From positions 104,519 through 168,518 of the forward strand of contig NZ_HE997452.1 in NCBI RefSeq assembly GCF_000312525.1: 64,000 bases of DNA, given 5' to 3'. The DNA comes from Bartonella florencae. GTDB lineage: Bacteria; Pseudomonadota; Alphaproteobacteria; Rhizobiales; Rhizobiaceae. A model generated the notes under the pieces. That model had not been told where the DNA came from and ran no database searches. It saw nothing but the letters and a program-made list of their open reading frames with translations. This document shows, piece by piece, positions 5,012-22,549 of the stretch. Every line of letters begins with the position of its first letter. Position 1 is the stretch's first letter. Both the position numbers and the translations under genes were made by a program.

Positions 5012-5353
5012 TTAATTAATTTTAAAAGAAATAACATCACCAGCAGAACCATCACTCATGGCAATGCCAATGGTGCGGTCTGCGGCTTCTGCCTTAATAG
5101 CCTGCCCCTTGGGGTCAGAGGTTAAAAAGTCACCAAAGGAAACATTGCCTCCACAAACCACTTCGCCCCAACCGCATTGAGCAACATCGATCATTTCGCC
5201 AGCCTTTGCTTTACAAGAGCCGGCAGTGCCTAATAATTTATCAGCCTTCCCAGTAGCCGTTGCCACCATTCCATCACTGCGCGCTGCAACAATAAAATAA
5301 GGAGAGATCTCTGCTGCAGTGCGAAAAGATTTAATCAAAATCGTCGTACTCAT
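5012..5353 (-). CDS. Capsid decoration/cement protein (DUF2190-like)
   Basis: 113-residue beta-rich protein that likely binds outside the capsid lattice and stabilises it. Evidence: Gly-rich repeats such as GKADKLLGTAG and GGNVSFGDFLTSDPKGQA (19 residues), a pattern typical of DUF2190 decoration proteins, and position between protease/scaffold and capsid. The ATG at 5353 overlaps the protease stop as ATGA, with AAAGGA upstream. Confidence 0.75.
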   Translation of the reverse strand: MSTTILIKSFRTAAEISPYFIVAARSDGMVATATGKADKLLGTAGSCKAKAGEMIDVAQCGWGEVVCGGNVSFGDFLTSDPKGQAIKAEAADRTIGIAMSDGSAGDVISFKIN

Positions 5354-5832
5354 GATTGGCGTTCCTTTTGTTCAGAAATATAATCAACCGCTTGGCTAAT
5401 GGTGATGTCGAAGCCTTGTGCTTTCTGCTCTTGTTGATAATGGCGTGCAGCAAGTGCAATATCTTCTGGCGCAAGCTGATGTTCTTGCACCAAGGCACAT
5501 GTTTCTAAAGGGCTTGTCGATGCGAGAACGGGCAATTTCTCAACCAAAGTTTGAAAATGTTCCATGCCCCCTTCAAGGGTACAAAGGGCACGATATTCTT
5601 CACGCGCAGCCGGCAAAATCTTGCCCTCTTCAATCGCTTTGTCTAAAAGACCCTCAATCGTCGCCTTTTTTTGCTCTTCCCGCAAAAGTGCTAAATCTTC
5701 TCGCGCTTTTGTTAATTGAGCATTTAATTCCACCCGTTCTTTTTCACGTGTTGCAATGCTTGCTAAAATTTCTGCAGGTTTTGCATCTTCTGCCAGCTCC
5801 AAAGCACTGGCAATGGCTGTTAAATCCATCAT
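5350..5832 (-). CDS. Nested in-frame scaffold protein (Mu gpZ-like), predicted
   Basis: Within the protease gene, in the same frame, two tandem ATG codons at 5832 and 5829 follow ACGGAGAAA, a good Shine-Dalgarno. Initiation here would make a ~160-residue protein that is only the coiled-coil scaffold half. Phage Mu makes scaffold Z by exactly this arrangement inside gene I, so a separate scaffold product is likely. The start is seen; its use is inferred. Confidence 0.55.
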   Translation of the reverse strand: MMDLTAIASALELAEDAKPAEILASIATREKERVELNAQLTKAREDLALLREEQKKATIEGLLDKAIEEGKILPAAREEYRALCTLEGGMEHFQTLVEKLPVLASTSPLETCALVQEHQLAPEDIALAARHYQQEQKAQGFDITISQAVDYISEQKERQS

Positions 5833-6408
5833 TTTCTCCGTCAAGGTTGTTGGGGACACCACAAGAGGTATCAAAGGGGGGGTTAAAGGGTGTTCACGGC
5901 TTAAAGCCGTCATCACAAGGGCAGGACGGTTCACCAGCCCTGCCCCTGCCAAACTTAAAATCTCACCATTTTTAGAATGACGAAACTCAGGGGAAAGATA
6001 GCGATATTCCCGCCCTACAATCTTTTTAGCTGCCATATCGGTCCATTTAACCCGACCCCAAATCGCACCATCCCGCTCTGCGAGTTCTTCAATCCAGCCG
6101 CTTGCCGGCGCTTCCAAGCCGTTCCTCGCTCTGTGATGTTGACCATGCTCATAATCAATCACAAGCGGTCCTTTATTGGCTGCAAAAGCCTTTAAAATCC
6201 TTTGTGGGTCATAATGCCATTCCCGTCCATCACGCGCCTTCACATTTGGCGCTTTGGGCAACAACTGCACCCATTCCGGTGCTTGGCTAACGGTGCCGTC
6301 TTGGCATAAAACGTCTGGGCAAAGATCTATGAACGCGGCATGAAATATCTCGTCATGACATCCTTCAGCATGCCCATCTTCTTGATCTTCGTGAAATTCC
6401 TGTTCCAT
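5350..6408 (-). CDS. Prohead protease with C-terminal scaffold (Mu gpI-like)
   Basis: 352-residue Mu gpI-type protease that matures the procapsid. The N-terminal two thirds contain the protease region, with VIDYEHGQHH near residue 84 and EYRYLSPEF near residue 137, then LVNRPAL. The last ~160 residues are a long charged helix of scaffold type (EKERVELNAQLTKAREDLAL). A candidate Mor-activated promoter dyad is centred 74 bp upstream of the start codon. The gene couples to the decoration gene by ATGA. Confidence 0.88.
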   Translation of the reverse strand: MEQEFHEDQEDGHAEGCHDEIFHAAFIDLCPDVLCQDGTVSQAPEWVQLLPKAPNVKARDGREWHYDPQRILKAFAANKGPLVIDYEHGQHHRARNGLEAPASGWIEELAERDGAIWGRVKWTDMAAKKIVGREYRYLSPEFRHSKNGEILSLAGAGLVNRPALVMTALSREHPLTPPLIPLVVSPTTLTEKMMDLTAIASALELAEDAKPAEILASIATREKERVELNAQLTKAREDLALLREEQKKATIEGLLDKAIEEGKILPAAREEYRALCTLEGGMEHFQTLVEKLPVLASTSPLETCALVQEHQLAPEDIALAARHYQQEQKAQGFDITISQAVDYISEQKERQS

Positions 6409-6475
6409 ACATTGCCTATTGCTTTACAATTATCATTGGCAATACAATGCACGAAATCCCCTTCAACTCATAAGC

Positions 6476-6488
6476 CTGACAGTGTCAG
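6476..6488 (-). promoter_or_regulatory. Candidate Mor-type activator site upstream of the head operon
   Basis: Palindrome CTGACAGTGTCAG whose centre lies 74 bp before the protease ATG. The flanks match the second copy at 13963-13975, giving about 24 shared bases that differ only at the central position. Mu Mor and C bind dyads just upstream of promoters that lack a -35 box. Together with a Mor-like gene in the same prophage this supports an activated late promoter. Confidence 0.65.
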
Positions 6489-6717
6489 TCAAAAGAGCAC
6501 TTCTTAAAAAAAGCACTTTTTTTCCCTCTTATAGCCTGTAAGAGAAACCCCAATACCAAACCCTCTCATAAAATCGTTTTCAAAGGCACTTCAAAGGCGA
6601 TAGAGCGCCGTTAGAGATCTTAAGGTACAAATTATCGTCTTAATACAAAAAGCCTCTCTCAAAACGCGTTTTTTTTAAAGATTGCTTTTGAATGTTTAAA
6701 CTGTTAGATTACCCGCG

Positions 6718-6790
6718 AGGCGTGAGCCAGTTATACCAGGACGGTTTTACCGGACCTGCGAGGAGTTGACCGCCCTCCACGCCTTCTCAT
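6718..6790 (-). ncRNA. GC-rich structured element with a 19-codon Arg-rich open frame
   Basis: On the minus strand, 54 nt after the gpF stop, AGGCGTG (6778-6784) pairs with CACGCCT (6718-6724). Between them are a GGAG/CTCC hairpin and an inner CGGT/ACCG hairpin (6742-6752). The same segment carries an ATG at 6790 with a GAGG Shine-Dalgarno about 4 nt upstream, encoding MRRRGGRSTPRRSGKTVLV. It may be a structured RNA, a tiny basic peptide, or both. It lacks the T-loop of a tRNA. Confidence 0.35.
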
Positions 6791-6843
6791 TTTCCTCGCC
6801 TCTTTTCCGTTAAAATCATAGGACTTTCTTCCTGTTGTTCTCT

Positions 6844-8049
6844 TTATAACAACCTCTCGCCCTTCTTTTCAGCAACATGTAACAAACGTTGAATTTCTCT
6901 GAAGCTCTTTTTATGCATGGAGGTCAGCCACCATTCTTGTTTGCTTGCTACCCATTTGACCACAAAGCGCCACCACGCCCCACCACTTTCACCAAAAAAC
7001 AAAACACTCGGCACATCTTTGCGTCTGATGATACCATAGGGTTTTATGAAGGTTTGAATGGCACCACGAAAATCCTCCAAGTAAAGAGACCGCGCTTGAT
7101 GCTCTAACAAAATATGTTTCACACTGTCTGAAGATAAACGAATAAGAGAATTGTCCCCACCAAAAACATCACGCACCTTTTCTATCATTGGGGCTATGGG
7201 AAGAAATCCACGAGGCATATGTCCTTCAAACATCGCTTCCAAAAGCGGTGAGCCCACAATATCTTCAATAGCAATGCGTTTGCGATTGTCCCCCATTAGG
7301 GAAATTTTATCACTTAAAAAATTGCTTAAATTTTGCGCGCGATGTTTCCCGGGGTTAGAATGCCATCCAGGATCAATGCCTACGGGTATCTTTTCAACAA
7401 GCCCCGTCCGCTTATTGCGCCAAACCCGCGTCTCCACATGGGGTGGTGCTGCCCCCTCTTCATAGCCTAAATTGTCTGCCTCATAACGGCTTACCTGCCG
7501 CACACTGCATTTACATCGCCAGCCATTGGGGGGATAAAGCCAATCCCAAATGGGATCATCAACCGGTGCCGTAAAACCCACCCAACTTTCATGTTCTAAA
7601 CGCTTATGTTCTGAACTCGACAACGCATAGGTCAGATAAGGCAAAAACTCTTTATTATTTTGTGTACGTTCCCATTCACCTGCCGCATGGGCACTCATGG
7701 TATTGGCCCAATAGACCGTTTCTAAACGCCGCGGGCTGCCCAATTGCACCACACTTTTTTCACCCGTTTTCGGGTCAATGCTGGTCTTTTTCCCCCACCA
7801 GCCCTTTTCCTGTAAAATCGGCATCAAATTTTTTTGAAAATCCTGAAAAGGAACTTGATGCTTGATAGCGTCTCCAACCGCTTGTTTAAAATCCTCTAAA
7901 ATGTCATAGCCTACTGATTTTGCCACCGTAAAGGAAAAGGCATGCTCTTCTGGTGCTATATCCCGCCAATCAAAGCTTGGAACAATATTTTTGGCGGCAA
8001 AATAACGGGTGACCTCTTTGGGTGCTGTTTTAAAAAGTTCCTCATCCAT
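6844..8049 (-). CDS. Mu gpF-like minor head protein with C-terminal PBECR-type nuclease-like domain
   Basis: 401 residues. The N-terminal ~230 residues are Mu gpF/SPP1 gp7-like: a helical start, VYWANTMSAHAAGEW, then PPNGWRCKCSVRQVS with the conserved CxC. These proteins sit at the portal inside the head. The last ~110 residues, from IRLSSDSVKHILLEHQ to LTSMHKKSFREIQRLL, resemble the barnase/EndoU/colicin E5/RelE-like (PBECR) nucleases found fused to gpF in polyvalent phage proteins. The start at 8049 overlaps the portal gene by 8 bp. Confidence 0.8.
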   Translation of the reverse strand: MDEELFKTAPKEVTRYFAAKNIVPSFDWRDIAPEEHAFSFTVAKSVGYDILEDFKQAVGDAIKHQVPFQDFQKNLMPILQEKGWWGKKTSIDPKTGEKSVVQLGSPRRLETVYWANTMSAHAAGEWERTQNNKEFLPYLTYALSSSEHKRLEHESWVGFTAPVDDPIWDWLYPPNGWRCKCSVRQVSRYEADNLGYEEGAAPPHVETRVWRNKRTGLVEKIPVGIDPGWHSNPGKHRAQNLSNFLSDKISLMGDNRKRIAIEDIVGSPLLEAMFEGHMPRGFLPIAPMIEKVRDVFGGDNSLIRLSSDSVKHILLEHQARSLYLEDFRGAIQTFIKPYGIIRRKDVPSVLFFGESGGAWWRFVVKWVASKQEWWLTSMHKKSFREIQRLLHVAEKKGERLL

Positions 8050-9643
8050 GATACCCCAGTCCCCGCGCAATCATTTGCACCTTTGCCAAGCGTGCTGCCA
8101 AAGCATGATGATCCATCTCGCCCAACAATTCATCTAAGCCTTTGAGGATATCCTCATAACTTTTAGCCTCTCTCACAAGCTTTTTAAAAGGCTCTAAAAG
8201 GGGTTCTAAATCCTCTTCCCAGTCACTTAAAGCCTCACTCGAAAGCCGATCCAATTCGTCGTGATGTTTTCCACTCTGCTCTTTTCCACTCTTACCCTCT
8301 CTTGTCACAGAAACATCAAAAGCCCCCCCACAATCAGCACAAACATGAGCTTTTTGTTGCCCCGCACCATCCTCTTGTCCCCTCTCATCATCAGGCGCAT
8401 TATCAGGAGCCTTTAAAACATCTTCTTCCCTTTTTGGTTGCGAAAAGCCAATCTTATTGCGTACTTCTTGCGCCCCAACACGCAATCCTAGAGGCACAAG
8501 TTTTTCTAAAGCATCACTAATCGCTTTAATATCTTCATTTTCCGAAATCGGCCAATAGACAAGGGGGTAGCGCTCTTGGCGCCCAAAATTAATCTCAACA
8601 AAAGGTACAATCAAATCACGATTAGCTGTCAAAGCCAATTGCCGTGCATCAGCTCTGGCAATATCATGGCGCACATTTTCATGGATGCGGGCTTGCGAAA
8701 AAGACGCCCCATCATCCGTCGTCATGGTTTGCCCCAACACCCCTTTAGAGATCTGTCGATCTAAATATTCCGCCTTTGCGGCAAAAACCGCATTGCCACT
8801 GCCTCCTGCCGCTTCAATAAACTCAATCTCCATCTCTTTGGGAATAATCGCCGCCGCATCACTGGATAAATCACGTACCGCTTGAATAAGAACCCGCCGC
8901 TCTGCTTCAGAAGAGCTCGCACCATATTTACCTACACGCAAAGGCATGCCATAAACTTCTAAGAAAGCCATCCAATCTTTCAAGGTATAAGACTTAAACA
9001 AAAATGCCCAAGCCGCAAGTCTGGCAAGCCCAGAACGGATTGGCAATCCACTTTTTAACTTTGGTCTGTGAATGGAAAATTTATAAGCAGGCAGTTCACT
9101 TCCGTGCAAAGATCCCTCTTCTTTTAAACGCAAATGAAAACCGTCTCGCCTATCCAATTGAAAAAACCGCTGATCACGCCACCTCCATGCAACCGGCCAC
9201 CATTCTTTGGCACTCTTATCCCACAAGGTTTCAACAACCGCATAGCCTTTGCCCAAGGCATCTAACAAATCCGCCACATAATCATCAACAAAAGTAGGCG
9301 CGCTAATCACTTCGCGCACCGCATCGGCTATTCTTTTATCCTGTGCACTGTTGCTTGCCGCAATCACCCCAGGCTCCACCCCCGTGAGGGCATTTTTACG
9401 CATGCCAAGCACCGCACGATAATGCAAATCACGCTCTTCCATATCATCCGCGAGTTGGAAAAACTGCTCTGGATGCCCCCGTGCTGCCTGTTGCAAAATA
9501 TCGGCAAGTTGAAGAGGGGTGAGACCACTGACAATGGTTTGTGACCATACATCACGAACACCACCAATGCTTGGGCTTGCCACTTCCCGTTCCAATCCCT
9601 TTATATGAAGCGCCCTACCCCATTGATCAACCAGTTTTACCAT
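8042..9643 (-). CDS. Portal protein (Mu gp29-like, DUF935)
   Basis: 533 residues. DUF935 portal signs include LADDMEERDLHYRAVLGMRK near residue 65, GYAVVETLWDK near residue 132, and VYGMPLRVGKYG near residue 230. A C-terminal CADCG motif near residue 430 lies in a charged insert followed by a helical tail. It follows the terminase gene by 12 bp, the Mu order 28-29-F. It would form the DNA entry ring of the head. Confidence 0.92.
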   Translation of the reverse strand: MVKLVDQWGRALHIKGLEREVASPSIGGVRDVWSQTIVSGLTPLQLADILQQAARGHPEQFFQLADDMEERDLHYRAVLGMRKNALTGVEPGVIAASNSAQDKRIADAVREVISAPTFVDDYVADLLDALGKGYAVVETLWDKSAKEWWPVAWRWRDQRFFQLDRRDGFHLRLKEEGSLHGSELPAYKFSIHRPKLKSGLPIRSGLARLAAWAFLFKSYTLKDWMAFLEVYGMPLRVGKYGASSSEAERRVLIQAVRDLSSDAAAIIPKEMEIEFIEAAGGSGNAVFAAKAEYLDRQISKGVLGQTMTTDDGASFSQARIHENVRHDIARADARQLALTANRDLIVPFVEINFGRQERYPLVYWPISENEDIKAISDALEKLVPLGLRVGAQEVRNKIGFSQPKREEDVLKAPDNAPDDERGQEDGAGQQKAHVCADCGGAFDVSVTREGKSGKEQSGKHHDELDRLSSEALSDWEEDLEPLLEPFKKLVREAKSYEDILKGLDELLGEMDHHALAARLAKVQMIARGLGYHG

Positions 9644-9655
9644 CTCACAATTCCC

Positions 9656-11296
9656 TTAATAAATCTTTGATCGCATCGTTGAAACAAAAGCGGGTGAAAA
9701 GAGCGGACTTTCATCAAAGCTATAAACCTCTCTCACAGGCGTATATTCGTAAATTTCCGGCGTCTGGCGGCTAGCAAAATAAGCCAAAGCGCAAGCAATA
9801 GCACTATCCCCATGGCGCATAAAACCATCACTGCCTTTAAAACGATGATTGTCTGGAATTTTCACAATGCCATTGACATAAGCAAGTGCTTGATGATCCG
9901 CCACAATATCACTATCGCGCGGCAAAACAATAGACCCATCCCCAAAGGCTTCCAAATAAGCCGGCATTTCTTTGCCATACCAACTTTGCGACAATTGTAC
10001 TTCCCTCACACACGCCCCATAACGCTGCGCTGCTTTTTCGGCTAAATAAGCCCCATTGCCCCGCGCATCTAACGCGCCCCCTAACAAACGTGGCAATCCA
10101 CTAACCCCATAAAATAAAATCTCTCTTTGTTGATCAAACGGCATATTGCGCAATTCCACCATAAACCGTACACGGCGTACCAAATCTTGTCCCACTTCCA
10201 TCACCACAATCGAGGTGGCATCGCCTGAACGCGCAAAATCAACGCCAAAAACATGTTGGCGCCGCCGATCAAGCCGAACATGCAGAGGCTTTACATGCTT
10301 CTCACACCAAGAAAACGCCACTTGACTTCGTTGATCATCCGATTGGTTCTTAAACTGATCTACACAAGCAAAACGCAACACCGCAATATCTGGTACACAA
10401 CAATTTTCAATCTGCAAGCGCGTTAAAGCTGCCCCTTCTTGATCAGCCGGTATAGCATCCAATTCTTGCCGCATAGCACTCAAACGCACCCCATAAGAAG
10501 CACGGATCTGCTCTTCCCATTGTTGTTCTGCTTCCCTACTCCACCCCTCCCCCTTCATGGCGCAAACCCGTTTAAACAAGCCATTTTTAACAGCCTCACC
10601 AAAGGGGTAACGATGCAGAGAAAAAGGAACTTTGCCTGCACGCGCCTCACGGATCAGTTCATTGAAAGGATTAAGCACCCCATTGTGTGTTGAGATCACA
10701 CGGATTTTACCGCCCCAAATCAACAAGGCATTCACCGCATCCAAAACAGCGCGCACATCTTGATGAAACGCTGCCTCATCAATCACCACAATGCCCTGTA
10801 GTCCGCGAATATTTTCAGGGCGGCTTGAAAGCGCTTCAATGCGAAACCCCGAAGCAAAGCGTACCCGATAAGCAGAGATATATTTTGTCGACCCATCCTC
10901 TTTTTGATCTGGAAATAAAAATTCTTCCACATCCCCACTGTGGCTGGTAAGTACTCTCGCAAAATTGCTCACATAGCCAATAAATTCACGCCCCTTTTCT
11001 TTGGTATCACCAATGTAAAAAACATTATCGCCCCCCGCCTTAAACGTTGCCGCCGCAATCAGCGTATCATCTAGAGCCTCTGCAAAAGTAATGCCGGTCC
11101 GGCGCCCTTTCTCAACCAACTTTAAGGGAGATTTATCCTCAATCCATGCCCGTTGATGCGCCATCAAAACCCCTTCAGCTAAGGGATCTTTCTCTTTTGG
11201 AAAAGCACTTGTCTGCCAAAGATCAAAACCCAACCGATCACCATTTGCATCATTGTTTAAAGGAGTCTGTTCAAAAGCCTCACACCCTTCAACCAT
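9656..11296 (-). CDS. Terminase large subunit (Mu gp28-like)
   Basis: 546-residue DNA packaging motor. The ATPase half shows a divergent Walker A (EKGRRTGIT near residue 61) and Walker B (GIVVIDEAAF near residue 168). The nuclease half shows FGVDFARSGDATSIVV near residue 349 and ALDARGNGAYLAEKA near residue 409, giving the acidic residues of the RNase H-like fold. It overlaps the small-subunit gene by 8 bp. Length and order match Mu gp28. Confidence 0.93.
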   Translation of the reverse strand: MVEGCEAFEQTPLNNDANGDRLGFDLWQTSAFPKEKDPLAEGVLMAHQRAWIEDKSPLKLVEKGRRTGITFAEALDDTLIAAATFKAGGDNVFYIGDTKEKGREFIGYVSNFARVLTSHSGDVEEFLFPDQKEDGSTKYISAYRVRFASGFRIEALSSRPENIRGLQGIVVIDEAAFHQDVRAVLDAVNALLIWGGKIRVISTHNGVLNPFNELIREARAGKVPFSLHRYPFGEAVKNGLFKRVCAMKGEGWSREAEQQWEEQIRASYGVRLSAMRQELDAIPADQEGAALTRLQIENCCVPDIAVLRFACVDQFKNQSDDQRSQVAFSWCEKHVKPLHVRLDRRRQHVFGVDFARSGDATSIVVMEVGQDLVRRVRFMVELRNMPFDQQREILFYGVSGLPRLLGGALDARGNGAYLAEKAAQRYGACVREVQLSQSWYGKEMPAYLEAFGDGSIVLPRDSDIVADHQALAYVNGIVKIPDNHRFKGSDGFMRHGDSAIACALAYFASRQTPEIYEYTPVREVYSFDESPLFSPAFVSTMRSKIY

Positions 11297-11870
11297 GTTT
11301 TATCCCCAACACTTGCGCACGAATAGCCCTTGCCGTCTCTTCTGAGAGCCCCGCTGCTGCCGCTGCTACATCAACCGCTTTACTTGCCTTACTTGTAAAA
11401 TCCTTCTCTAATCTTTGCCGTCTGGTCGTAGATAAATGTTCAGCAGCCAAAACCCCTTTAAGCGCATTAGCCAACTCTTGGGCAGCCTTTGGCGAAAGGC
11501 TTTTCCCACTGCTTAACGTGGAAAAAATAAGCTCTTTAATCGCTGCAGCTGTTAACAGAGTAATATTATCAGAAGCTTTGGCATCAAAGCGCTGAGAGAG
11601 GCTTGCTGCTATTTCACGCGTTTGTTCTAAGCGCCGTGACATCACCGCGAGCCGCAAAGAATAACGATTAAAACTGGAAAAAGAGGGAATAGAAAAATTG
11701 AGACCCATTTCTTTTTTTAAAGCCTTCAAAGCTGCTTTAAACTCATCATAAATGGCTTTTTGCGTCTTTTCACGCCCATTTAAAGCTTCAGCCGCCTCTG
11801 CAATAATTTGATCACAAGCTTGTGGCAATAAATCAATCGCCGTTAAGCGTCCACGCCCGACCTTGCGCAT
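11289..11870 (-). CDS. Terminase small subunit-like protein (Mu gp27, DUF3486)
   Basis: 193 residues. The N-terminus GRGRLTAIDLLP is the DUF3486 signature, followed by helices and SIPSFSSFNRYSLRL, the second family motif. In Mu, gp27 is the presumed DNA-recognition partner of the gp28 terminase, which is the next gene here. Overlaps of 38 bp upstream and 8 bp downstream point to tight coupling. Confidence 0.88.
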   Translation of the reverse strand: MRKVGRGRLTAIDLLPQACDQIIAEAAEALNGREKTQKAIYDEFKAALKALKKEMGLNFSIPSFSSFNRYSLRLAVMSRRLEQTREIAASLSQRFDAKASDNITLLTAAAIKELIFSTLSSGKSLSPKAAQELANALKGVLAAEHLSTTRRQRLEKDFTSKASKAVDVAAAAAGLSEETARAIRAQVLGIKHG

Positions 11871-12189
11871 CCCTCACCTCGTCTTTTATCGATGAACGTT
11901 TGGGGCGCTTAATCCCTTCAATGGAAAAACTACGATCTAAATGACGCGCCCCCCGTTCTGTTAAAGCTACAAGCAAAACAGACCCCACACATTTTAATGT
12001 AACAGCGCCTTGATCTTCCATAAAAGCCAGTTCATTGTGCACAAAATCGCGATCACGCCGAATACCATAACTGTATAAAAGCCGCTCAATCATCGCACTC
12101 GATAACGTTTCGCTCCGCTCACAAGCAAGCCCTTTTAAAATAATCAACCGCGCTTCTTCACGGATGATTTTATCCATATCTGCTTTCAT
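11833..12189 (-). CDS. Small winged-helix-like phage protein (Mu gp26 position)
   Basis: 118 residues. An N-terminal helical part (EEARLIILKGLA) and a pattern helix-helix-beta hairpin (ELAFMEDQGAVTLKCVG, VLLVALTERGARHLD) look like a winged-helix fold. It occupies the place of Mu gp26 between the gp25-like and gp27-like genes. Function is unknown. It overlaps the next gene by 38 bp and the previous one by 4 bp. Confidence 0.65.
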   Translation of the reverse strand: MKADMDKIIREEARLIILKGLACERSETLSSAMIERLLYSYGIRRDRDFVHNELAFMEDQGAVTLKCVGSVLLVALTERGARHLDRSFSIEGIKRPKRSSIKDEVRDAQGRAWTLNGD

Positions 12190-12500
12190 TTCTTGGCATT
12201 CTCCAGTAAAAACTCTTGCAAGCGCTCACCTATGGCTGCCACCGGTTGTAATTGCGCAGAAAGCGTGTTGAGACGACCATCTAAGCGTTCCAGATTCACT
12301 TCCAACCTTTGCAAAGCATCACGATCTGGCAAAAAATCCATCTCTGTTTCTAATTTTTGCACACGCTCTTTAAGCGCAACGATATCTTTCAGCATTTCCT
12401 TAGCGCCAGAAGAAAAATAAGCTCTCAAAACACCACAAATCGCAACAACCGATAAAAGCAAAGACAACCAACCATTGGCCACACTAATATCCAAATTCAC
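12186..12500 (-). CDS. Small membrane/coiled-coil phage protein (Mu gp25, DUF2730-like)
   Basis: 104 residues with one N-terminal membrane helix (LSLLLSVVAICGVLRAYF) and a long coiled coil (IVALKERVQKLETEM, LQRLEVNLERLDGRL). This build and the position before the gp26/gp27-like genes match DUF2730 (Mu gp25). Role unknown. It overlaps its neighbours by 4 bp on both sides. Confidence 0.75.
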   Translation of the reverse strand: MNLDISVANGWLSLLLSVVAICGVLRAYFSSGAKEMLKDIVALKERVQKLETEMDFLPDRDALQRLEVNLERLDGRLNTLSAQLQPVAAIGERLQEFLLENAKK

Positions 12501-12778
12501 GAACCCCTCCTTGACTTCATTAAAATGGCTTTGACAGCTGCTCGTCTGTGCTGTTCGCAGATCAATAAAGCAGCACGATCACGGCTCCAATAATGCACCA
12601 CTTCGCGTGCATTCAAAGCGCGTTCGGGCAACAAAGAAGGGCGGGCACACACCATGCGAACAACAGGCGGCAATTCAACCGATAAAAACTGATAAGCAAA
12701 ACTATCCCTTGGCTTGGGTGTTGAGCAAGCGCACACGCTCAAGCCCAATGCCACCGCCAGTAGTTGGCAATACTGCAT
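12497..12778 (-). CDS. Rz1-like outer-membrane spanin lipoprotein
   Basis: 93 residues. A short signal peptide (LLAVALGLSV) is followed by a cysteine pair CAC at residues 16-18; residue 18 is the likely lipidated cysteine (VCAC box). Its start lies inside the preceding Rz-like gene in another frame, the classic nested Rz/Rz1 arrangement. It would span the periplasm with Rz to fuse the membranes at lysis. Longer than lambda Rz1. Confidence 0.65.
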   Translation of the reverse strand: MQYCQLLAVALGLSVCACSTPKPRDSFAYQFLSVELPPVVRMVCARPSLLPERALNAREVVHYWSRDRAALLICEQHRRAAVKAILMKSRRGS

Positions 12779-13040
12779 TGACCTCCTCCATTTTTGTAAG
12801 CCTTTGTCTTAAAGCAGAAATCACCCCTTGTGCTTGCAGCTCTGCTCTTTGTGCTGCCTCTCTTTGCTGTTGCTGCTCAAACTCTGCTTGTAGGGAAATC
12901 TTGGCAATTTCTAAGCGCCAATACACATCACGCGCTTTTTCTGCTTTTAAAACTTGCCCCTTCATCCAACCAAACAACATGAAAAGGAAAAGCGCAAAAA
13001 AAAGCACCCCAAAAGACAGCTTTAAAGAAGGATTAAACAT
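12702..13040 (-). CDS. Rz-like inner-membrane spanin
   Basis: 112 residues: one N-terminal membrane anchor (FGVLFFALFLFMLFGWM) then an extended coiled coil rich in Glu, Gln and Ala (LQAEFEQQQQREAAQRAEL). This is the i-spanin architecture. It starts 6 bp after the holin-like gene and overlaps the Rz1-like gene by 77 bp out of frame. GAAGG lies a few bases before the ATG. Confidence 0.7.
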   Translation of the reverse strand: MFNPSLKLSFGVLFFALFLFMLFGWMKGQVLKAEKARDVYWRLEIAKISLQAEFEQQQQREAAQRAELQAQGVISALRQRLTKMEEVNAVLPTTGGGIGLERVRLLNTQAKG

Positions 13041-13046
13041 TCACCT

Positions 13047-13319
13047 TCACCCCCTCCATAACCCATCATTGCACCCGTATTTCCCGCTCTCAGGAGGATT
13101 AAAACGCTTTCTATTGGAAAAATCCAAAGAACCAAAACCGCGATGCACTCCCAAATTCCCAACAATAATTGCCACCATCGAAGGAATAGAAATCGCCGCC
13201 ATATCAACAATACGGGGTGCTCCAAACAAACCTCCCAAAATGAGCAAAAAAATAACCCCCCAAGCAAACCAAAAGGACCACCATAAATAACGCCGAGACC
13301 CCCGATACGATGGCTTCAT
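13047..13319 (-). CDS. Putative holin
   Basis: 90 residues with a basic N-terminus and two hydrophobic segments (FWFAWGVIFLLILGGLFG; IVDMAAISIPSMVAIIVG), a small-holin layout. The ATG at 13319 overlaps the endolysin stop (ATGA), so release of endolysin and holin is linked. The holin call is by size, topology and position in the lysis cassette; no family motif is recognised. Confidence 0.6.
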   Translation of the reverse strand: MKPSYRGSRRYLWWSFWFAWGVIFLLILGGLFGAPRIVDMAAISIPSMVAIIVGNLGVHRGFGSLDFSNRKRFNPPESGKYGCNDGLWRG

Positions 13320-13897
13320 GACGTCACCTCGCATGAAAGCCCCAAAAGCTTTTTGGCCTGATTAAGATACGTTAAACGCTGAACAAGACCATTTTTCCCA
13401 CCATTAATCGCTTTGGTAATTCTAAGCAAATCATCTTGATCTGCTAACTTATTCAAGCCGTTCCTCTGCCAAAACCAAATGGCAGACCAAAGCGCTGCCG
13501 GAAATTTTTCCAGCACTTCTGGAAAAGCTTCACAATCAACCGCTTGTTCATCGACTAAGCCCCAAAACTTGCTAAAACGGCGATAATTATTACGCCCCGT
13601 CAATTGGATCAAACCACGCCCCTTAAAGCGCACACCATCACCAGGGTTGACATTGCCTAAATCACGCCGTCCTTCATAAGCGCGCCCTGAGGCATATTCA
13701 CAAAGGGTAAAAAAGCCATCACTCTCATGGGCACATTGGCTTAAAAAATGTGCAATACGCAAAGGTGTCGTGAGTGCCCCATAAGACAAAACTTCAGGCA
13801 AGAAACGTGCCATCTCAACAATAATATAATCTTGGCGCGCATGATGCGCCAATTTAGGCGCAAGTTGATGAAGAAAAGAAGCATCTATTGAAATCAT
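13316..13897 (-). CDS. GH19 family endolysin (chitinase-type muramidase)
   Basis: 193 residues. The glycoside hydrolase 19 core is clear: FLSQCAHESDGFFTL near residue 50 supplies the catalytic glutamate, ASGRAYEGRRDLGN follows, and FKGRGLIQLTGRNNY near residue 93 is the family signature. There is no signal peptide, so it depends on a holin. ATG 13897 is preferred to the TTG at 13912. A candidate Mor-type dyad is centred 72 bp upstream, so this is probably the first late gene. Confidence 0.92.
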   Translation of the reverse strand: MISIDASFLHQLAPKLAHHARQDYIIVEMARFLPEVLSYGALTTPLRIAHFLSQCAHESDGFFTLCEYASGRAYEGRRDLGNVNPGDGVRFKGRGLIQLTGRNNYRRFSKFWGLVDEQAVDCEAFPEVLEKFPAALWSAIWFWQRNGLNKLADQDDLLRITKAINGGKNGLVQRLTYLNQAKKLLGLSCEVTS

Positions 13898-13962
13898 AAA
13901 AAAACCGCTCAATGAATAAAATTCATTCGCAGTTTATGAAATCTCACCCCTCCAATATAAGC

Positions 13963-13975
13963 CTGACACTGTCAG
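13963..13975 (-). promoter_or_regulatory. Candidate Mor-type activator site upstream of the lysis operon
   Basis: Palindrome CTGACACTGTCAG, directly after the mor stop codon and centred 72 bp before the endolysin ATG. It shares its flanks with the copy at 6476-6488. The matching spacing to both downstream start codons is the main evidence for a promoter function. Confidence 0.65.
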
Positions 13976-14392
13976 TCAAATATCACAACACTCATAAAGT
14001 TCTGGAAATAACAAACCTTGGGGTTCTCGTGAAGAAATTCTCTTCTTTAAGCGATAAGCTGTGCGCACATGCATACCAGAAACCGCAGCCGCTGCATCCA
14101 CCGACCAGCCTTTTTGCAAGGCTTTGACCATTTTTTGCCGACGTTCAGCATCTCTACCAAGGGGGATAAGAAGGCGCACACCAGAACCATTAAAACAAAA
14201 ATACTTGATCAATTGCTCCGCCTCTTCAAACCCAACAATTTCAATCAACCAATCCGCATTCTCAAGACGCCCAGGGATATAAACTTCTCGCCCGCCAAAA
14301 GCCCGCATCATATTCCATGCTGCCTCACTGCCCGCAACAGCGGCTATTTCACGCAATAAGGCAGGAAAATCGCTATAGACTTCCTCGTGCAT
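13976..14392 (-). CDS. Mor/C-family transcription activator
   Basis: 138 residues. In Mu, Mor turns on the middle promoter. Family signs: an N-terminal dimerisation part (FPALLREIAAVAGSEAAW), GGREVYIPGRL near residue 33, and a C-terminal helix-turn-helix (KGWSVDAAAAVSGMHVRTAYR). It follows GemA by 6 bp and precedes the lysis genes, the Mu order. A candidate operator abuts its stop codon. No separate C gene is seen, so one protein may serve both steps. Confidence 0.88.
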   Translation of the reverse strand: MHEEVYSDFPALLREIAAVAGSEAAWNMMRAFGGREVYIPGRLENADWLIEIVGFEEAEQLIKYFCFNGSGVRLLIPLGRDAERRQKMVKALQKGWSVDAAAAVSGMHVRTAYRLKKRISSREPQGLLFPELYECCDI

Positions 14393-14398
14393 GCATGC

Positions 14399-15028
14399 TT
14401 ACCCCTCGCTTTTAACACCTTGACGAATAATCCGCCCCCAAACATTCATCACTTCTATAAAATCGCCCCCACTCATCTCGCCCAAAGCTTTACCACTTAA
14501 CGCCACAACACTTTGATGAAAAGCCCCAAGGTCAAATACAACATCGGGATTCAAACGCTTCCATTGGGCACGCAAAATTAAATATCCTGGCATCTTTTGC
14601 CAGGAATCTTGAATCTTTTTCCCCTTCCAGTCAACCCCACCCTCACGCTGCAACCAGCTTTTCAACGCCTCAATAGCTCTACACGCATCATCGCTATCGC
14701 GTAAAAAGCGAATATGATCAATCCCTGTCTGTCTTTTGACAAAACGCACCAAGGCTTGATCTGAACGATCACGAATGATGCCAAGATTCCACCCTGCAAT
14801 CCATAAAGCTTGAAGCTTTTTGGCATATTTGCCCTCTAAAAGCTTAGCTTTTGGTTGAAAACCACACGCGCGCATCTCATCCATCACCAAACGCTTCTCT
14901 AAAACACTCAAATCTTTTGCCGAGTACTTGCCTGTCAGACGATAAAGCAGTGCGCGATAGGTCTCATCATCAAGACCTAACGCGCGTTTGCTCATATGAA
15001 TAGCCGCTAAAGACATGGTTTCCCTCAC
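14399..15028 (-). CDS. GemA-like regulator (Mu gp16, DUF1018)
   Basis: 209 residues. DUF1018 signs: IHMSKRALGLDDETYRALL at residues 10-28 and WIAGWNLGIIRDRSDQALVR near residue 76. In Mu, GemA modulates host gene expression and DNA topology early in infection. It overlaps DUF3164 by 4 bp upstream and precedes the Mor-like gene. Confidence 0.88.
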   Translation of the reverse strand: MRETMSLAAIHMSKRALGLDDETYRALLYRLTGKYSAKDLSVLEKRLVMDEMRACGFQPKAKLLEGKYAKKLQALWIAGWNLGIIRDRSDQALVRFVKRQTGIDHIRFLRDSDDACRAIEALKSWLQREGGVDWKGKKIQDSWQKMPGYLILRAQWKRLNPDVVFDLGAFHQSVVALSGKALGEMSGGDFIEVMNVWGRIIRQGVKSEG

Positions 15029-21559: not shown

Positions 21560-21865
21560 TTAAGCAGCATTACCGCGCAAAGCAGAATGCGCACGCGAAT
21601 CTGTATTGGCATGTTTTGCTGCTTTAAAAATGCGACGGCGACTTTTGGGGTAGCGGTCGCTAAAAACCTGCTCGACGGGCAAACCGATAAAATCGGCAAT
21701 GGCGCGTTCGGCTTTCTCGTTAGACCGTGTCCAAATGTGTTGAACACTGGATGACGAGAGTTGATAAGCTTTCGCGAGCTCCGCCAAGGTCATGTTCCGG
21801 CGGCGTAGCTCAGCTAAAATACTATGGCGATCCCATACTTGAATGCATGTTTGTGTGGTTGTCAT
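21560..21865 (-). CDS. Ner-like regulator
   Basis: 101 residues with an N-terminal Ner/Nlp HTH: WDRHSILAELRRRNMTLAEL then AKAYQLSSSSVQHIWTR. Ner of Mu represses early transcription from the operator between it and the c gene. It is divergent from the repressor gene with 102 bp between, the Mu arrangement. The tail (PKSRRRIFKAAKHANTD) is basic. Confidence 0.9.
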   Translation of the reverse strand: MTTTQTCIQVWDRHSILAELRRRNMTLAELAKAYQLSSSSVQHIWTRSNEKAERAIADFIGLPVEQVFSDRYPKSRRRIFKAAKHANTDSRAHSALRGNAA

Positions 21866-21883
21866 AAACTTTCGCTCCTGCTT

Positions 21884-21910
21884 AAAACGGATATTCCAAC
21901 TATCCGTTTT
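21884..21910. promoter_or_regulatory. Candidate operator between ner and repressor genes
   Basis: Inverted repeat with 10-bp arms AAAACGGATA and TATCCGTTTT around a 7-bp spacer, 19 bp before the ner start. A shorter GCCC/GGGC dyad lies near 21937-21954. Position suits binding of Ner or the repressor. Confidence 0.5.
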
Positions 21911-21967
21911 TTGTGGGGTTAATTGTAAAATATCTGCCCTCTATAGCGGGCGGTAATTAGAGGTATA

Positions 21968-22549
21968 ATGCCAAATTCGGCTTTTGTAAATACCGAAAAT
22001 GGATTTGGAGTGATTTTTTTGGCACGACCTGAAAAAGAACCTGCAACAGAACTCGCAAAACGATTGCGTGAAATACGGCACACCCTTGGTTTTACGGAGC
22101 GCAAACAATTTGCTAAACATTTTGAAATCCCCGAAACGACTATGCGTAATTATGAAACGGGTTTGCAAGAACCCCCTGCATCTATAATGCGAATATATAA
22201 AGATCGCTGTGGAATATCCTTAGACTGGCTCGTCACTGGAGAAGGCGAAATGTTTACAGATATGGCAAAAGCAAAAGCAGCAGGTTTTAAAGCACCTACT
22301 ATTCCTGCTGGTCTCATGAAAAAACTTGGTCGCATCGCTTATACAACCTATCGCGATGAAAATATAAAACTCCCCCCTGAAGATATAGCGGAACTCGCGG
22401 CGGAACTTTATAAAAAACTGCAAGAGCTGGTTCAAGACATCAACGACACGGAAGAAATAGAGCTTACCTTGCCTCTTCTAAAATTGCATTTAAAGCGCCA
22501 AATAGAAGCCGAAAGAGCACATCTAGAAACTACACAAGATACGGCTTAA
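21968..22549 (+). CDS. Prophage repressor (c-like, XRE-type HTH)
   Basis: 193 residues, the only clear prophage gene on the plus strand. After a short leader, ELAKRLREIRHTLGFTERKQ and IPETTMRNYETGLQEPPASI form a Cro/CI-type HTH, followed by GISLDWLVTGEGEMF. A C-terminal helical part (ELAAELYKKLQELVQDI) may form oligomers. AGAGG lies 5 nt before the ATG. It likely maintains lysogeny and is not obviously a LexA-type protease. Confidence 0.88.
   Translation: MPNSAFVNTENGFGVIFLARPEKEPATELAKRLREIRHTLGFTERKQFAKHFEIPETTMRNYETGLQEPPASIMRIYKDRCGISLDWLVTGEGEMFTDMAKAKAAGFKAPTIPAGLMKKLGRIAYTTYRDENIKLPPEDIAELAAELYKKLQELVQDINDTEEIELTLPLLKLHLKRQIEAERAHLETTQDTA

Follow-up and report, generated by a model that had tools for sequence, protein, structure and literature searches.

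A candidate single-activator late regulon in a Mu-like Bartonella prophage, and a probable recognition code among PHROG 836 phages

The window, that is, the whole 64-kb stretch of DNA analysed here, holds part of a Mu-like transposable Bartonella prophage. It contains two near-identical dyads, one in front of the endolysin gene that opens the lysis operon and the other in front of the protease gene that opens the head operon, together with a gene for a Mor/C-like protein next to the former. The features on which the following paragraphs are based are these:

14399..15028, minus strand: GemA-like gene, next upstream of the activator (Pfam GemA, E 4.6e-31)
13976..14392, minus strand: predicted late transcription activator, 138 aa, with an N-terminal domain and a helix-turn-helix (HTH); PHROG 836, Mor/C-like
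14051..14068, minus strand: activator codons 109-114, start of the recognition helix in the predicted model; V109, R110, Y113 and R114 stand at the positions that covary with dyad bases 1, 3, 2 and 5, respectively
13957..13980, minus strand: putative lysis promoter dyad with its conserved flanks, core 13963-13975; two 5-bp half-sites CTGAC with 3 bp between them
13933..13938, minus strand: predicted -10 hexamer CATAAA of the lysis promoter, 31 bases past the dyad centre; predicted start ~13926
13316..13897, minus strand: endolysin, first gene of the lysis operon (phrog_181, E 2.2e-54)
6470..6493, minus strand: putative head-operon (protease) promoter dyad with its conserved flanks, core 6476-6488
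6444..6449, minus strand: predicted -10 hexamer CATTGT of the protease promoter, 33 bases past the dyad centre; predicted start ~6437
5350..6408, minus strand: Mu I-like head protease, first gene of the head operon (Pfam Mu-like_Pro, E 5.8e-48; phrog_328, E 4.7e-77)

The dyad core on the protease side (6476-6488) reads CTGACAGTGTCAG and the one on the lysis side (13963-13975) reads CTGACACTGTCAG. Both are embedded in a common block, ATAAGCCTGACA-N-TGTCAGTCAAA, in which 23 of 24 positions are identical and outside which the two sequences are unrelated. The window has two copies of the exact pattern CTGACANTGTCAG, and 100 dinucleotide shuffles have none; for the 24-mer, with up to three mismatches allowed, the result is identical (two copies versus none in 100 shuffles). 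The bare 13-mer with two mismatches, on the other hand, is found twice where 1.67 copies are expected, which is not significant, so that the case is carried by the exact match and by the flanks in common. Both dyads are real and well above what chance would give: a chance origin is rejected by the empty shuffles, and a local duplication by the unrelated flanks beyond the block. The original prediction, made from the window alone, had described this pair with about 24 shared base pairs, and this description is borne out. Its distances also agree when recomputed, with 74 bp from the protease dyad centre (6482) to the protease ATG (6408) and 72 bp from the lysis dyad centre (13969) to the endolysin ATG (13897), and the Mor-like gene does end directly at the second dyad, since the activator ORF (13976-14392, minus strand) abuts position 13975.

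The original prediction had noticed no other copy in the window. This holds, since no further copy was found there with up to two mismatches, but the prophage is cut by the window. In the whole host genome there are four exact copies of CTGACANTGTCAG, two of them in the window. The third one precedes the tail-sheath gene of this Mu-like prophage, outside the window and 4,982 bp beyond its left end, and the fourth one is found on contig C10, before a truncated sheath start. Besides the lysis, protease and sheath copies, no dyad was seen in the prophage, where stretches beside the sheath promoter, within the tail-fibre region, read N (in L005, next to the sheath dyad at 15019, and in part of L006).

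The protein encoded next to the lysis dyad matches phrog_836 over nearly the full length of the profile (E 3.3e-29, residues 1-129, profile positions 4-132 of 133), and only weakly (E 0.03) PHROG 532, the second family of late activators that the scan covered. It hits Pfam HTH_23 with E 6e-8 and Pfam Mor (PF08765) with E 0.001 and 19.5 bits, under the cut-off of 24.9; at E <= 0.01, the Mor domain is matched by 29 of 38 aligned sequences, this protein included, the best of them at 2.3e-9. The predicted model (mean pLDDT 82) has a C-terminal helix-turn-helix formed by helices 98-105 and 109-121. Foldseek retrieves Mor chains only weakly with this model (9l0y_M at E 0.61, 1rr7 at E 1.3), Mor was not found among the best 50 VIA-align fold matches, and a profile of 12 sequences run against the PDB sequences reaches Mu Mor (1rr7) at E 0.008. 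When the host assembly (89 contigs, estimated completeness 99.99) was searched with the PHROG 836 and PHROG 532 profiles, this single gene was found and no second Mor/C paralogue, so the host genome does not show the two paralogues of the three-stage cascade of Mu (Mor then C). The GemA-like gene precedes the activator gene on the same strand, with a gap of 6 bp.

A strong match to the activator is present in 26 of 71 Bartonella genomes. The 24-mer, with up to three mismatches, occurs in all 26 of these and in nine of the 45 others, and the reversed control pattern gives one match each in three of the 71. In 15 of the 26 genomes with the activator, a single contig carries three dyads, which are about 0, 7.5-8 and 19-20 kb away from it. 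A 27th activator match (G057), 26% identical over residues 12-100, comes without the dyad. In the Ochrobactrum phage POA1180, with 48% identity between its activator and that of the window, the exact dyad occurs three times in the whole record of 41.7 kb, namely at lysis, protease and sheath. Not every phage has a sheath dyad: of seven phages with a sheath in the locus, two carry it. POA1180 also has two genes with chromate transport and chromate resistance annotations between its late genes and its repressor (L089:8684-9350).

In the nine dyad-bearing genomes without an activator, with at least one copy inspected in each, the dyad mostly stands before a broken sheath start of 11-68 codons. 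That all solo sheath copies in these genomes are decayed was nevertheless rejected, since some of them keep a full-length sheath frame: in three genomes (G016, G024 and G031) a sheath frame of 427-429 codons lies behind one dyad copy. In a fourth one (G039) a protease dyad copy is followed by a frame of 352 codons. Among the loci, lone sheath promoters with a broken sheath frame of 8-68 codons are found at L040, L047, L048, L055, L059, L060, L068 (~1502) and L006:9310, and lone sheath promoters followed by a frame of 427-429 codons at L042/L218, L054 and L222, the latter group in genomes without an activator match. If the cell also harbours an intact prophage, such lone copies could be switched on by it. 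At L040 and L067, the lone sheath promoter runs into a short HTH gene, which we take to be HigA-like. The genome of L220 (G039), also without an activator match, has a protease and a sheath promoter at 8116 and 19826, 11.7 kb apart, possibly a defective pair or one reliant on the activator of another phage. Several prophages of the same type can share a chromosome, as in G066:C2 and G026:C1, with 16 and 12 dyads, respectively, and four activator genes each.

No sigma-70-type pair was found at either window dyad, the sole match lying inside the endolysin gene. In the Bartonella leaders, where the -10-like hexamers were chosen by eye, such a hexamer lies 31 bases past the dyad centre in 17 of 19 distinct lysis sequences, and 32 bases past it in 17 of 19 distinct protease sequences and in 12 of 15 sheath leaders. 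A fixed -10 matrix, scanned over 88 promoters of 44 phages (see below), has its peak at an offset of 33 bases (z 5.9 versus offsets 41-84), counted from the dyad centre; by parity, the peak is at 33 for the 74 even dyads and at 31 for the 14 odd ones, and the pooled hexamer has A at position 2 in 72% and T at position 6 in 69%. Setting the hexamer start at -12 places the dyad centre at -43 to -45. At the level of the sequence, the window shows two traits of a Mu C-type late regulon: a common dyad in front of the lysis and head (I) operons, and a predicted -10 that lies downstream of the dyad where no -35 is present. At the Mu promoter Pm, which has no -35, the site bound by Mor consists of two 5-bp arms and has its centre at -43.5 (PMC4390567, PMC4287176).

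In a sample of 397 genomes of the order, 91 match PHROG 836 at E <= 1e-3, some of them over the HTH only; in a sample of 398 genomes of the phylum, 81 match it at E <= 1e-7. For the comparison of dyads between phages, 146 activator loci were gathered: 94 from PHROG 836-positive sampled genomes, selected by the length of the contig, 50 from IMG/VR, POA1180, and the window itself. A protease was detected in 84 of them, and 74 were left below 85% activator identity. Since an unfiltered listing of palindromes was too noisy in GC-rich loci, a scored comparison of the lysis and protease palindromes was used instead. A palindrome shared by both leaders with a score of at least 24 is present in 45 of the 74 non-redundant phages, versus 468 of 5,402 cross-phage pairs, which include pairs of phages with a common word; the other 29 phages have none at this threshold. 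The removal of L258, whose two leaders overlap, leaves 44 phages. Their half-site words include CTGAC, CTGAA, CCGAC, CCGAA, GTAAC, GCGAC, CGGAC and GTGAA, among others, and the dyad length is odd in seven of them (the window and POA1180 included) and even in 37.

In these 44 phages, with kinship ignored, the bases of the half-site go along with residues at the start of the recognition helix. Base 5 is C in 28 of 30 phages with R114 and A in 11 of 14 with other residues (table 28/2/3/11, Fisher p 3.1e-6, uncorrected for relatedness), and base 3 is G in 32 of 33 with R110 versus 1 of 11 with other residues. At base 1, E109 goes with C in 21/21 and R109 with G in 6/6; at base 2, an aromatic residue 113 goes with T in 18/19, leucine with T in 3/3 and glutamate with C in 4/4, and R113 with G in only 5/9. 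The window activator has V109, whereas 21 phages with C at base 1 carry E109. Contacts of arginine with guanine and of glutamate with cytosine are a textbook HTH pattern. The register was fixed by rule, with 3 bp inside odd dyads and 4 bp inside even ones, as a result of which L201 is read off-register. The fit is poor for several loci with more divergent helices (L125, L149, L150, L152, L153, L133, L151, L168 and L169), which, like L201, were all retained in the 44.

Plain mutual information between columns and bases was discarded as confounded by relatedness: residues 17, 21 and 49 score high in it, and the mean z is equal for residues 96-118 and those below 85. In a group-constrained permutation (41 phages, 300 permutations), labels were shuffled only within groups with similar N-terminal domains. 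Here z is 8.3 for 109 and base 1, 7.9 for 114 and base 5, 5.7 for 113 and base 2 and 3.6 for 110 and base 3, each with 0/300. Residues 109, 114 and 113 lead the ranking and 98 comes next; 110 and base 3 form the sixth pair, after those of 98 and base 2 and of 113 and base 1. Besides 113, residues 98 and 105 thus covary with base 2, and base 1 covaries with 113 as well as with 109. This covariation suggests that residues 109, 110, 113 and 114 of the activator read the dyad half-site.

The rule derived from the 44 phages was applied to the 62 loci without a detected protease, which had been held out and of which 30 were predictable. The predicted dyad is perfect in the own lysis leader of 13/30 loci. 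Against the leaders of phages for which the rule gives a different word, the prediction is perfect in 0/580 pairs; against all other held-out leaders, same-word phages included, in 165/1,682 pairs; and in shuffled own leaders, in 7/15,000. Among held-out loci less than 85% identical to one another and to the training set, 8/20 are perfect. Predictions other than CTGAC are perfect in 5/14 loci (two of which, L249 and L250, have the same helix) versus 1/804 pairs, and the hits include CGGAA, a word not in the training set, and GTGAC, present there once with a different helix (L138). Of the 17/30 imperfect predictions, two fall on truncated leaders (L242, L259), five belong to one divergent helix (L191-L194, L207), three to loci with tandem activators (L123, L124, L131), and L183 matches 9/10; for the remaining ones, no explanation was found.

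Our main reading, to which we give a probability of about 0.92, is that a single Mor/C-type activator would open three late operons through these dyads, with residues of its helix reading the half-site. The activator (138 aa) would probably be produced from the end of the early operon and, as a dimer, would bind CTGAC-N3-GTCAG centred around -43 to -45. Once bound, it would substitute for the missing -35 and presumably recruit the RNA polymerase to the -10. Three late promoters would be opened in this way, that of lysis at 13963, that of the head protease at 6476 and, 4,982 bp beyond the left end of the window, that of the tail sheath. The half-site would be read by residues 109, 110, 113 and 114, where the recognition helix begins. 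The support for this mechanism is comparative, consisting of the conservation of the triplet, the match of dyads within a phage, the residue-base covariation, the held-out prediction and the fixed spacing to the -10; binding as a dimer, recruitment of the polymerase and the timing are what we infer. The Mor-like protein had been proposed to act on both dyads, which by comparison do behave as its cognate sites; the proposed regulon of two operons, however, has to be redrawn as lysis, head and tail.

Beyond this phage, we find it fairly probable that Mu-like late activators carry a simple, evolvable code, as the covariation and the held-out sites point to. In this code, residue 109 would set base 1 (E for C, R for G) and residue 113 base 2 (aromatic or L for T, E for C, R often for G), R110 would go with G at base 3, and R114 with C at base 5 (other residues mostly with A). 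Activator and promoters would change their word jointly, each lineage would thus have a private, insulated late regulon, and late promoters could be located from the activator alone.

Two readings without an activator at the dyads were considered and rejected. Short, symmetric dyads of HTH type could be operators at which a phage repressor, from the CI/Ner-like genes at 21560-22549, or a host regulator represses the late genes, and the prophage does encode two HTH repressor-like proteins. However, no copy with up to two mismatches lies near the repressor genes, the dyad word tracks the PHROG 836 helix and predicts held-out sites, a -10 follows the dyad at activator spacing and, among the Bartonella genomes, the dyad accompanies the activator gene, all of which makes this explanation very improbable. 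We give even less credit to transcription terminators or RNA hairpins at the operon borders. A stem can form, 13975-13963 is a weak terminator-like match of 5 pairs in the scan, and T-rich sequence follows the sheath copy of POA1180; yet there is no terminator-like match in 6300-6700, the dyad is followed by CTTAT and not by a T run, and the -10 lies at a fixed spacing on the late-gene side. A constant word within each phage, covarying with the helix residues, would also be unexpected of terminators.

A different question is what drives the activator itself. It could work on the dyads and still be expressed from a separate middle promoter of another kind, as from Pm in Mu, where such a step exists (PMC4287176); three related loci with tandem activators, moreover, have an exact CTGAC dyad before the second one. 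Against this, one Mor/C-type gene was found in the genome, only 6 bp separate it from the GemA-like gene, and the window has no further dyad, and we regard a middle step here as possible but rather doubtful. These same three observations fit with the loss of a separate Mor step, and a single-step cascade would be plausible on this basis; the lack of a second paralogue supports a two-stage programme (early, late), without proving it. The tandem loci just mentioned (L123:905-1367, L124:919-1333 and L131:1002-1548; 0-based, activator on the plus strand) have two PHROG 836 genes each. Two dyads precede the second gene, one an exact CTGAC dyad and the other near-perfect, an arrangement that looks like a Mor-then-C cascade built from one family. 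No protease was found at them in 19.8, 12.6 and 20 kb of sequence, respectively.

Coming back to the single-activator reading, the use of one activator for both lysis and head, which the original prediction proposed in place of the separate Mor and C steps, is no change from Mu, since Mu C already works in this way, at Plys, PI, PP and Pmom (PMC4461284). If the code is true, the late promoters of PHROG 836 phages would be mappable from sequence, cross-activation between co-resident prophages would become predictable, the joint change of specificity of one activator and several promoters would become testable, and small orthogonal activator-promoter pairs would be on offer. In the open-access literature, largely represented by titles and the openings of abstracts, we found neither dyads of this kind in Bartonella phages nor a recognition code for Mor/C-type activators, and the words "promoter" and "inverted repeat" are absent from the main text of the POA1180 paper as available (PMC5492332).

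The three known systems resemble the Bartonella one in different respects. POA1180 (Abaiavirus) is similar in its dyad word at lysis, protease and sheath, in the 3-bp spacing and in an activator with 48% identity, but it is devoid of the CTTAT flank and its flanks are GC-rich. The Mor/Pm system of Mu shares a Mor/C-type activator and two inverted arms of 5 bp near -44 (-43.5 for Mor) in a promoter without a -35; the arms are 3 bp apart in the window, or 4 bp in the even dyads of 37/44 phages, versus 6 in Pm, and the Bartonella dyads stand before late operons, with no second paralogue found in the genome. The late promoters of Mu C share one activator for the lysis and head operons and a dyad upstream of the -10. 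In Mu the C gene stands directly before the lysis operon, as does the activator gene in the window. The differences from Mu C lie in the third dyad, which in Bartonella precedes the sheath gene and in Mu precedes P, and in the window protein, which matches PHROG 836 and only weakly PHROG 532 (E 0.03). What was already known is therefore the control of lysis and head by one activator, by Mu C; what looks new is the proposed family-wide code, together with a private late regulon for each phage.
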